Assembly (NCBI RefSeq): GCF_009733815.1 | Contig: NZ_WNXY01000016.1 | Location: 1 to 37,580, forward strand | Direction: 5' to 3' | DNA: 37,580 nt | Origin: Pseudactinotalea suaedae | Lineage (GTDB): Bacteria > Actinomycetota > Actinomycetes > Actinomycetales > Beutenbergiaceae | Part shown: one piece after another, positions 18,759 through 27,918 of the stretch | Position numbering within the stretch: position 1 is the first letter of the stretch | How the letters are laid out: each line of letters starts with the position of its first letter | Translations under genes and position numbers: made by a program | The notes under the pieces: generated by a model | The model's database searches: none | The model's input: only the letters and a program-made list of their open reading frames with translations | What the model was told of the DNA's origin: nothing

Positions 18759-19757
18759 GTGTCCCTCCGCCGCCTCGGCGCCTGCGCCACCCTCGCGACG
18801 CTCGCCGTCCTGCTCACCGCCTGCTCCGCGGGCAACGCCGACCCCGCACCCACCGGGGCCGGCGACCCCACCGACCCCGGGGGCGGGTACCCCGTCACGG
18901 TCGACAACTGCGGCACCGAGGTGAGCCTCGAGGCCCCTCCCGAGCGGATCGTCACGATCAAGTCCTCGACGACGGAGCTCGCGCTCGCGCTCGGCGTGGG
19001 CGACCGCCTCGTCGGTGCCGCCTTCCTCGACGGCCCCTTCCCGGAGGAGATCGCCGAGGCGGGCGCGCAGGTGCCGGTGCTCGCCGAGCGGGCGCCGTCC
19101 TCGGAGATCGTGCTCGGCGCCGAGCCGGACCTGATCTTCGCGGGCTGGGAGTCCAGCTTCGCTGCCGACGGGATCGGTGAGCGCGCCGAGCTGGCCGCGC
19201 TCGGGGTCGAGACGTACGTCGCACCGGCAGCCTGCCAGGCCGACGGCTACCGCCCCGACCCGCTGACCTTCGACTCGGTCTTCGACGACATCATCGAGGC
19301 CGGCGAGCTGCTCGACGCGCGTGAGGAAGCGGCGGCGCTCGTGGCCGAGCAGCAGGAGGCGCTCGCGCAGGTCACCCCCTCGGAGGCGGGCCTGACCGCC
19401 CTCTGGTACTCCTCGGGCTCCGACACGCCGTTCGTCGGGGGTGGCATCGGAGCCCCCCAGATGATCATGGACGCCGTCGGCCTGGAGAACATCGCCTCCG
19501 ACCTGGACACCTCGTGGGGCTCGATGGGCTGGGAGAGCGTCGTCGCCGCCGAGCCGGACGTCGTCGTGCTGGTCGACTCCGCCTGGAACAGCGCGGACAA
19601 CAAGATCTCCGTGCTCGAGGCCAACCCGCTGACCGCGGCCCTGCCCGCCGTGCAGGAGGGCCGCTACCTGATCGTCGACTTCGCGGCGACCGAGGCCGGA
19701 ATCCGCAACGTCGACGCGGCGGCCTCGCTCGCCGAGCAGCTGGACGCGATGCCGTGA
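18759..19757 (+). CDS. ABC transporter binding lipoprotein, proposed F420-0 importer component
   Basis: A 332-aa lipoprotein of the FecB/BtuF (class III) binding-protein type. The lipobox LLTAC gives Cys22 as the lipid anchor. Features: YPVTVDNCGTEVSLEAPPE, RIVTIKSSTTELALALGVGD and GSDTPFVGGGIGAPQMIMDA. These segments fit my recollection of the actinobacterial family described as the proposed F420-0-binding protein (TIGR03868), which occurs with a dedicated permease and ATPase in organisms that often keep only the last step of F420 biosynthesis. Siderophore or cobalamin uptake is the alternative within this fold. GTG 18759 has GGAG 7 bases upstream; its stop overlaps the permease GTG by 4 bases. 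cofE and an F420 enzyme lie 4.5 kb away. Confidence 0.78.
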   Translation: MSLRRLGACATLATLAVLLTACSAGNADPAPTGAGDPTDPGGGYPVTVDNCGTEVSLEAPPERIVTIKSSTTELALALGVGDRLVGAAFLDGPFPEEIAEAGAQVPVLAERAPSSEIVLGAEPDLIFAGWESSFAADGIGERAELAALGVETYVAPAACQADGYRPDPLTFDSVFDDIIEAGELLDAREEAAALVAEQQEALAQVTPSEAGLTALWYSSGSDTPFVGGGIGAPQMIMDAVGLENIASDLDTSWGSMGWESVVAAEPDVVVLVDSAWNSADNKISVLEANPLTAALPAVQEGRYLIVDFAATEAGIRNVDAAASLAEQLDAMP

Positions 19758-20875
19758 CCTCTCGCCTGGACACCCCGACGACGACGGCGCAGCCCTCCGC
19801 GCGCCGTCGTCTTCCGGTGCCCTGGCTCGGGATCGGTCTGGTGCTGCTGCTCGTCTCGATCCTGCTCGCGATCGTCATCGGACCCGCCTCGGTGGCCGGC
19901 CCCGCCCCGATCACGCCGTTCGACGTGCTGGGCTCGGCCTGGCACCACCTCAGCACCTGGCTGGCCGAGCGCGGATTGCCGGTGACCGCATCCGAGAACC
20001 CGCTCTCGCTCGTGCGCGACGGCATCATCTGGCAGGGTCGCGCACCGCGAGCGCTGGCCGCCGTGCTCGTCGGTGCGGGTCTCGCGCTGTGCGGCGTCGT
20101 GCTGCAGGCCGCCACCCGGAACCCGCTCGCCGACCCCTACCTCCTCGGCATCTCCTCGGGCGCGGCCCTGGGCGCCGTGGCGGTGCTGATCCTGGGGATC
20201 GCGGTGCCGCTGCCGATCGCCGCCTTCGTCGGCGCGGTGCTGGCGCTGCTCGCGACGCTGGCGCTCGCGGGGATCGGTGGCCGGCTCACCGCCAACCGCG
20301 CGGTGCTCGCCGGCGTGGCCGTCGGTCAGGCGGCAGCGGCCGGCGTCTCCTTCATCATCTTCTCGACGGCGCAGGGCGACTCCTACCGCGACATCCTGGG
20401 CTGGTTGATGGGCACCTTCGGGGCGGCGAGCTGGAGCTCGGTGCTGATCGCGCTGGTCGCGCTGGTGGTGCTCGGCGGCATCCTGCTGGGGTTCAGCCGC
20501 ACCCTCGACGCGTTCGCCTTCGGTGACACCGCTGCGACAGCTCTGGGCGTGGACGTGCCGCGGACGCGGTGGTTGCTGCTGATCCTCAGCGCGCTGCTCA
20601 CCGGTGCGATGGTGAGCGTGAGCGGCGCGATCGGCTTCGTCGGCCTCACGGTGCCGCACGTGGTGCGGCTGCTGCTCGGGCCGGAGCGCTCGGGGAACGC
20701 GGCGCTGGCCCGGACCAGCGCCGCCGTCGGTGGCATCTTCCTGCTCTGGGCCGACACCGTGGCGCGGACGGTGTTCACGCCGCTCGAGGTCCCGGTCGGG
20801 GTGCTGACCGCGCTGCTGGGTGCACCCGTGTTCGCCTTGCTGCTGCTGCGCAGCCGTCGGCGCGGTGAGTCATGA
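19754..20875 (+). CDS. FecCD-type ABC permease, proposed F420-0 importer component
   Basis: A 373-aa polytopic membrane protein of the FecCD/BtuC family, which forms a homodimeric or paired channel for metal chelates or cofactors. The family segments include RAPRALAAVLVGAGLALCG, LQAATRNPLADPYLLGISSG, WLMGTFGAASW and GAIGFVGLTVPHVVRLLLG, the last being the loop that contacts the ATPase. An N-terminal helix (LGIGLVLLLVSILLAIVIG) precedes. The GTG start at 19754 overlaps the binding-protein stop; its own stop overlaps the ATPase start by ATGA. With only one permease gene, the channel would be a homodimer. It corresponds to TIGR03869 if the F420-0 assignment of the cassette holds. Confidence 0.85.
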   Translation: MTSRLDTPTTTAQPSARRRLPVPWLGIGLVLLLVSILLAIVIGPASVAGPAPITPFDVLGSAWHHLSTWLAERGLPVTASENPLSLVRDGIIWQGRAPRALAAVLVGAGLALCGVVLQAATRNPLADPYLLGISSGAALGAVAVLILGIAVPLPIAAFVGAVLALLATLALAGIGGRLTANRAVLAGVAVGQAAAAGVSFIIFSTAQGDSYRDILGWLMGTFGAASWSSVLIALVALVVLGGILLGFSRTLDAFAFGDTAATALGVDVPRTRWLLLILSALLTGAMVSVSGAIGFVGLTVPHVVRLLLGPERSGNAALARTSAAVGGIFLLWADTVARTVFTPLEVPVGVLTALLGAPVFALLLLRSRRRGES

Positions 20876-26904: not shown

Positions 26905-26919
26905 GTCTGACTCCTCGGG

Positions 26920-27918
26920 TTAGCGGCTGAGCGCAGGCAGCACGGCGGAGGAGAAGGTCTCGATCCACTCGCGCTGGTTGCGGCCGACGTTGTGCAGGTA
27001 AACCCGGTCGAAACCGAGGTCGAGATAGCGCTGGATCTCGGCGCGGTGCCGGTCGGGGTCGGCGGAGATCACCATGCGGCCCTCGAAGTCCTCGGGCCGC
27101 ACCATCTTCGCGATCTGCGCGAGCTCGAACGGGCTGCGGATGTCCGACTTGGGGAACCGCATGCCGCCGTTGGGCCACTCCAGGAGGGCGTTCGCCATCG
27201 CCTCCTCGTCGGTCGGTGCCCAGGACAGGTGGAGCTGGACGACCTTCGGCATGGTGGCCGCGTCCTTGCCGCCCTCACGCGCGCCGGCGGCGAACCGGGC
27301 CAGCAGCACCGCGATCTTCTCCAGCGGCGCACCCATGGTGATCAGCCCGTCGGCGTGACGCCCGGCGCGGCGTGCGGTCACCGGGCCGGCTGTGGCCACG
27401 AGGATCTCCGGCGGCACCTCCGGCATGGTCCACAGCCGCGTGGACTCGAGCCGGTAGTACTCGCCCGCGTGCTTGTGGTCCTTGCCCGCCAGGCTGTTGC
27501 TGAACAGCTTGTGGATGATGTCGATCGCCTCGAACATCCGGTTGATGCGCTCGGGAGCCTCCGGCCAGTACGGCGCGACCACATGCTCGTTGATCGCCTC
27601 GCCGGAGCCGACACCGAGCCAGTGCCGCCCCGGGTACATCGCGGCGAGCGTCGCGCTCGCCTGGGCGACGACGGCGGGGTGGTACCGGAAGGTCGGTGCC
27701 GTCACACCCGTGCCGAGATCACCACGGGTGCGTTCGCCTGCGGCGGTGAGGACGTTCCACACGAAGGCCGCCTGGCCCTGCTGCGGGACCCAGGGCTGGA
27801 AGTGGTCGGCCGCCATCACCCCGGAGAAGCCGCGCTGCTCGGCGAGCACGCAGTAGTCGAGGACCTCCAGCGGGGCGAACTGGCCCAGCATGGCCGCGTA
27901 GCCGATGGTCGCCGCCAC
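26920..27918 (-). CDS. F420-dependent LLM-class oxidoreductase, Fgd-like (G6PDH family)
   Basis: A 332-aa TIM-barrel oxidoreductase that uses F420. Compared with M. tuberculosis Fgd1 it has the same pattern: IGYAAMLGQFAPLEVLDYCVLAEQRG, ADHFQPW, LGTGVTAPTFRYHPAVVAQA, LGVGSGEAINEHVV and GEYYRLE. The substrate (sugar phosphate or other alcohol) is not fixed; F420 family TIGR03557 is the best guess. GTG 27918 is 3 bases after the SelW-like stop, so they are coupled; AGGC is very near. It precedes cofE by 15 bases. The operon thus pairs an enzyme that uses F420 with one that completes it. Confidence 0.87.
   Translation of the reverse strand: MAATIGYAAMLGQFAPLEVLDYCVLAEQRGFSGVMAADHFQPWVPQQGQAAFVWNVLTAAGERTRGDLGTGVTAPTFRYHPAVVAQASATLAAMYPGRHWLGVGSGEAINEHVVAPYWPEAPERINRMFEAIDIIHKLFSNSLAGKDHKHAGEYYRLESTRLWTMPEVPPEILVATAGPVTARRAGRHADGLITMGAPLEKIAVLLARFAAGAREGGKDAATMPKVVQLHLSWAPTDEEAMANALLEWPNGGMRFPKSDIRSPFELAQIAKMVRPEDFEGRMVISADPDRHRAEIQRYLDLGFDRVYLHNVGRNQREWIETFSSAVLPALSR

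Follow-up and report, generated by a model that had tools for sequence, protein, structure and literature searches.

Genes at the locus

The window analysed here is the entire 37,580-nucleotide contig NZ_WNXY01000016.1 of Pseudactinotalea suaedae (assembly of 4.54 Mb, 99.99% complete). It carries a cassette of three forward-strand transporter genes followed by two genes on the minus strand, cofE and an Fgd-like gene, which together may form a salvage locus for coenzyme F420. All five genes lie where a previous sequence-only reading had placed them. The first cassette gene (18759..19757) encodes a putative F420-0 importer lipoprotein substrate-binding protein, the second (19754..20875) a FecCD-type permease and the third (20872..21669) an ATP-binding cassette (ABC) ATPase. 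In NCBIfam profile searches, each of the three proteins scores highest against its counterpart among the putative F420-0 transporter models (TIGR03868, TIGR03869 and TIGR03873, respectively). The binding protein passes the curated TIGR03868 cut-off (464.7 bits against 392.4). The permease is TIGR03869-like and the ATPase TIGR03873-like: these are their top models of all, yet the scores (411.9 and 300.8 bits) lie below the curated cut-offs (437.35 and 372.4). The sequence-only reading had likened all three proteins to this cassette; the binding protein bears this out, while for its two partners the family is simply the best match. The GTG of the permease at 19754 overlaps the TGA of the binding-protein gene (GTGA) and the ATG of the ATPase overlaps the TGA of the permease (ATGA), from which the three genes would constitute one operon. 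The mechanical open reading frame of the permease starts at 19514 and homology begins at 19754.

The binding protein exhibits a lipobox-like LTAC motif ending at C22, a residue invariant in a 53-row alignment. Pfam recognizes Peripla_BP_2 in this protein and FecCD in the permease. The AlphaFold model of the binding protein has a mean predicted local distance difference test score of 90.6, and the top sequence match among solved chains is PDB 4MLZ (344.7 bits, residues 16-331). In an alignment of 93 binding-protein rows, 52 positions reach a conservation of at least 97%, including Lys68, Trp130, Arg142, Trp216, Trp253, Trp276, Lys282 and Arg316; such aromatic and basic side chains would be compatible with a phosphorylated deazaflavin as ligand. 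The siderophore and cobalamin families, named in the sequence-only reading as the competing assignments, score far lower: the EitA model comes second with 128.8 bits (cut-off 640) and BtuF reaches 29.9 bits (cut-off 234). The ATPase scores 233.1 bits against a haem model.

The minus-strand gene at 26170..26904 encodes a single-domain CofE, the coenzyme F420-0:L-glutamate ligase, as previously proposed (TIGR01916, 213.2 bits against a cut-off of 180.65). It has a TTG start preceded by a ribosome-binding-like site (GAGGAG), and no other gene of the genome matches the model at E<=1e-20. Fifteen bp upstream on the same strand lies the gene for the Fgd-like F420-dependent luciferase-like (LLM) oxidoreductase (26920..27918). 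The pair is thus convergent to the cassette and downstream of it, separated by the 4.5 kb already measured in the sequence-only reading (21669 to 26170). The interval holds genes for a metallo-beta-lactamase-fold protein, a protein of unknown nature, an NAD epimerase-like protein, an AraC regulator and a PhyH-like oxygenase; these are not considered part of the module. The distance from the start of the binding-protein gene to cofE is 7.4 kb in the window and 4.3 kb in a genus-mate (G012).

The label "Fgd-like" proved apt. The enzyme passes TIGR03557, the wider F420 family (282.6 bits against 210.4), and stays below TIGR03554, which represents Fgd proper (218.5 bits, cut-off 420). Its top model, TIGR03885, is labelled flavin mononucleotide (FMN)-dependent, and here too the cut-off is not reached (300.7 bits, 398.7 required). 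The best match among solved chains is PDB 9HAV (418 bits), identical in sequence to 9HAW-9HAY (54 chains altogether). 9HAY is presented in PMC12750041, which makes this closest solved relative an F420 enzyme. Together with the TIGR03557 score, this renders the FMN label doubtful for the window enzyme. Four TIGR03557 members exceed the cut-off in the genome and are likely users of F420 in this organism.

F420 genes in the host genome and across the order

By profile search, the host genome keeps cofE and is devoid of FbiC (cofG/cofH), CofD and CofC. There is no match to cofH at E<=1e-20 (a single 19.6-bit fragment appears at E<=1e-3), to cofG at E<=1e-15 or to cofC at E<=1e-5, and cofD is limited to a 27.7-bit fragment (cut-off 257). 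The complete fbiC-fbiA-fbiD set, which the sequence-only reading had named, together with binding of a metal chelate and not F420-0, as speaking against salvage, is consequently absent from the genome in these searches. The bacterium seems unable to make F420 from scratch, and its gene content supports F420-0 salvage, in agreement with the earlier suggestion of precursor uptake followed by glutamylation. That the import would be F420-0 rather than complete F420 depends on which enzymes remain. Within the host family, cofH is above its cut-off in none of 24 genomes, three of which include fragments of 19.6 to 20.5 bits.

Our sample of the order comprises 297 genomes. The transporter was found in 77 of them: 74 binding proteins are above the cut-off and three lie just below (353 to 382 bits). 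The threshold applied to cofH and cofE was E<=1e-20, and cofD had to exceed its cut-off. For cofC, weaker matches were added to those above the cut-off in two transporter genomes (G106 and G285) and in three genomes without transporter carrying cofC, cofD and cofE without cofH (G033, G231 and G270). The transporter genomes fall essentially into two genotypes: cofE only (36) and cofC, cofD and cofE without FbiC (38). Two others carry the full set (G207 and G285) and one, G204, whose assembly is 69% complete, no F420 gene at all. Thus cofE accompanies the transporter in 76/77 genomes while cofH is not matched in 75/77. An independent FbiC probe, cofG, detects the same two transporter genomes and all three controls. 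It caught the divergent FbiC of control G088 (454 bits) and still identified only 2/77, so that an overlooked divergent FbiC was rejected as the source of these absences.

The 220 genomes without transporter are distributed differently: 111 have none of these genes, 47 the full set, 36 cofE only, 19 cofC, cofD and cofE without cofH, and 7 other mixtures. cofE is matched in 180 genomes of the sample (above its cut-off in 146/297). Among these 180, the transporter is present in 74 of the 129 without FbiC versus 2 of the 51 with FbiC (Fisher p 1.9e-12, kinship ignored). The transporter is therefore a strong, though not exclusive, marker of genomes that lack FbiC.

Some genomes without transporter deserve mention in their own right. 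Among the 36 that carry cofE only, 35 belong to genera g16 and g21, and several of the cofE scores listed are below the cut-off; their cofE may have another role. The 19 with cofC, cofD and cofE, twelve of them from a single family (f17), would appear to be FO auxotrophs for which an importer is not known; divergent relatives of the transporter occur in G254 and G279, both among the 19. The FbiB C-terminal reductase was also considered as a marker of the cofC and cofD route. It proved uninformative: it is above the cut-off in 0/37 and 0/26 genomes, full-pathway genomes included, with weaker matches at E<=1e-10 in 1/37 and 8/26. A passage and a reference title of PMC8764529 name stand-alone reductases in Thermomicrobia, suggesting that another enzyme may replace the FbiB reductase.

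Gene neighbourhoods and the binding-protein tree

The arrangement seen in the window recurs across genera (counts are lower bounds owing to short contigs and an overlap filter). Of the 36 cofE-only genomes, 32 have cofE at most 9.5 kb from the transporter and 31 have it convergent and downstream; a strong Fgd-like gene is nearby in 31, and cofD is near the transporter in none of the 36. In the 38 genomes with cofC, cofD and cofE, cofE is close to the transporter in 26 and cofD in 22. Sixteen of them carry a cofD in the same orientation as the ATPase gene, beginning 60 to 167 bp beyond the ATPase match, and a 17th (G132) shows it behind the ATPase with a gap of 1.9 kb. The two full-pathway genomes carry no cofE, cofD or Fgd-like gene within 9.5 kb of the transporter. 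G207 has cofD, cofC, cofE and an Fgd-like gene at a distance of 15 to 22 kb, and G285 has cofE and an Fgd-like gene at about 25 kb. Eighty named loci were examined, of which 12 have a downstream stretch under 9.9 kb. cofE was seen in 38/80, every time convergent and downstream, and a co-directional cofD lies within 4 kb downstream of the binding-protein gene in 22/80. Ruania albidiflava (L007) exemplifies the cofE-linked loci and Cellulomonas terrae (L066) the cofD-linked ones. Given these recurring arrangements and the model scores, chance and mis-annotation were rejected as explanations of the locus.

The full form occurs in Cellulomonas, where transporter and cofD face cofC, cofE and an Fgd-like gene; in one such locus (L025), cofD, cofC and cofE are all above their cut-offs. 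The window locus looks like this form minus cofC and cofD. Separate cofD and cofC pairs also exist: in Pseudactinotalea terrae (L004, 18306-20994) the pair lies beyond the Fgd-like gene, and in G008-G011 it is elsewhere in the genome.

Gene content points to different needs in the two genotypes. Where CofE is the only enzyme of the set, the genome requires F420-0 or a longer form; where CofC and CofD are present and FbiC is absent, it requires FO, and the position of cofD just behind the transporter in the 16 genomes without FbiC suggests FO as the likely import there. We mapped the cofE-only label on a quick tree built from 80 binding-protein sequences (those of the 77 genomes and three divergent relatives). 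It requires 10 changes, at least 5 of them on starred branches, suggesting that the protein either recognizes the shared deazaflavin head or was repeatedly re-tuned. Alignment columns 281, 285 and 274, chosen post hoc from all columns, separate the genotype classes best. A basic residue at 281, beside the invariant Lys282, is found in 32/36 cofE-only proteins, 2/22 cofD-linked, 1/16 with unlinked cofD and 0/2 full-pathway ones; for Ser274 the corresponding values are 33/36, 1/22, 7/16 and 0/2. The basic residue could hold a phosphate or carboxylate present in F420-0 and absent from FO. The window protein has Asn281 and Ser274. A kinship-corrected sign test of the link between these residues and genotype falls short of 0.05, with too few pairs (6, then 2), and the residue switch is not claimed as proof of ligand choice.

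The transporter extends beyond the order. In a class-wide sample, a binding protein above the cut-off was identified in 30/296 genomes, 21 of them outside the order. Twenty of these 21 loci were examined (L170-L189), some of them on stretches that stop before about 9 kb at contig ends. A convergent Fgd-like gene accompanies the transporter in 17/18 loci of family f38 and a co-directional one in 2/2 of family f45.

Two other features border the cassette in the window. Directly 3' of the ATPase gene, a 28-bp unit is repeated four times in tandem (21686..21797, forward strand). Its 20-bp core has no exact copy among 169 loci, genus-mates included, and the repeat probably has no tie to the function of the locus. 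Directly upstream of the transporter (17369-18636), a gene for a sigma-70-like factor of the extracytoplasmic function (ECF) type overlaps a gene without Pfam match.

A probable salvage module, its alternatives and known systems

From the gene identities, the genome-wide absences, the conserved arrangement and the co-occurrence, we infer ligand, direction of transport and cofactor use. We read the locus as an F420 salvage module, with a probability of roughly 0.68. The lipoprotein would bind an extracellular deazaflavin, which the permease and ATPase would bring into the cell. CofE would then attach the glutamate tail, and F420-dependent enzymes, including the Fgd-like enzyme encoded beside cofE, would use the finished cofactor. 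Because the window genome has none of CofC, CofD and FbiC, its import would be F420-0 or longer F420. Relatives that have CofC and CofD and lack FbiC would most likely receive FO through the same transporter. More tentatively, and with the odds somewhat against so specific a scheme, one importer family may serve two nested routes, for F420-0 in cofE-only genomes and for FO in FbiC-less genomes with cofC, cofD and cofE, its binding protein being re-tuned with the route.

Several observations weigh against the salvage module. The permease and ATPase remain below their curated cut-offs, and G207 and G285 possess the transporter together with a complete F420 pathway. Conversely, 55 of the 104 cofE genomes without transporter also lack FbiC, which implies salvage, or another use of CofE, independent of this transporter. 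Nineteen of these 55 carry cofC, cofD and cofE, their FbiC absence being judged by cofH alone. FO is reported to cross membranes in a passage of PMC11917521; an FO importer would then be less needed, which may explain these 19 genomes. Outside the order, the usual neighbour is not cofE: an Fgd-like gene stands beside the transporter in 19/20 loci, and cofE, cofC and cofD are found in none of the 20 within about 9 kb, though they may lie elsewhere in the genome. If these genomes make their own F420, the transporter there would be a supplement or have another function.

The strongest alternative, to which we grant a little less than an even chance, is that the transporter is a general FO importer, or takes any deazaflavin by its head group; cofE-only genomes would then import F420-0 or whole F420, CofE trimming or extending the tails. 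The FbiC-less genotype with cofC, cofD and cofE (38/77), the 16 of these in which cofD immediately follows the ATPase gene and the at least 10 changes of genotype label on the tree, indicating that one family repeatedly met both needs, are all consistent with it. However, FO is useless to cofE-only genomes, and both its reported permeability and the 19 genomes that lack cofH and transporter alike argue against a need for such an importer.

It is improbable that the transporter imports either the Fgd-like enzyme's substrate or some other nutrient, the presence of F420 genes nearby reflecting no more than the F420 requirement of that enzyme. The Fgd-like gene is indeed the most widespread neighbour, including in the loci outside the order where the other F420 genes are not seen. 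However, related Fgd enzymes are described as oxidizing glucose-6-phosphate, an intracellular sugar phosphate. Moreover, the established cargo of FecCD-type systems consists of siderophores, haem and corrinoids, and this explanation does not account for cofD behind the transporter or for the absence of FbiC in 75/77 genomes. An ordinary siderophore, haem or cobalamin importer is still less probable: the Pfam superfamily is the same, EitA is the next-best model and the ATPase resembles a haem one, but TIGR03868 is ahead by 336 bits, linkage to F420 genes is tight, no DtxR/IdeR-like box rises above shuffles upstream of the transporter in 79 regions, and no cobalamin riboswitch was found. Riboswitch control of the locus, by flavin or cobalamin, was likewise rejected, the sole match being a microRNA (23.7 bits, below its threshold).

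Among the papers listed in a literature search of titles and abstract openings, with subscription papers mostly outside its reach, none concerned an F420 or FO importer of this family, and exact-phrase and accession searches returned nothing. Among the matches listed for the review PMC8498797, the word "transporter" appears once, for a possible export in Paraburkholderia rhizoxinica.

The closest solved chain, 4MLZ, is named only "Periplasmic binding protein". The 9HAV-9HAY enzyme is close to that of the window, which nevertheless stays far below the Fgd model TIGR03554. The siderophore importer EitABC belongs to the same class, but its EitA cut-off is far off; the window binding protein is about 36% identical to Klebsiella plasmid proteins labelled ABC transporter substrate-binding protein, which are presumably EitA. 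If salvage is correct, many actinobacteria of the order would rely on the deazaflavins of their neighbours, and F420 would join B12 among traded cofactors.

The nearest known system is the NCBIfam cassette TIGR03868/TIGR03869/TIGR03873, a set of hypothetical equivalogs. The transport proposal comes from earlier work, as the sequence-only reading had recognized, since these models already bear the F420-0 transporter name; its likely source is reportedly Selengut and Haft (2010). The window shares with this cassette three overlapping genes, a binding protein above the cut-off, convergent cofE and Fgd-like genes and a genome without de novo F420 genes, and differs in the lower scores of permease and ATPase. 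Finding this named cassette here is ordinary, and its assignment as a salvage locus is well supported by gene content. The founding set reportedly comprises five genomes, four of them cofE-only, a rationale which does not cover the genotype with cofC, cofD and cofE that accounts for 38/77 here. What is new, and testable, is that a single transporter family spans two genotypes, one for F420-0 and one for FO.

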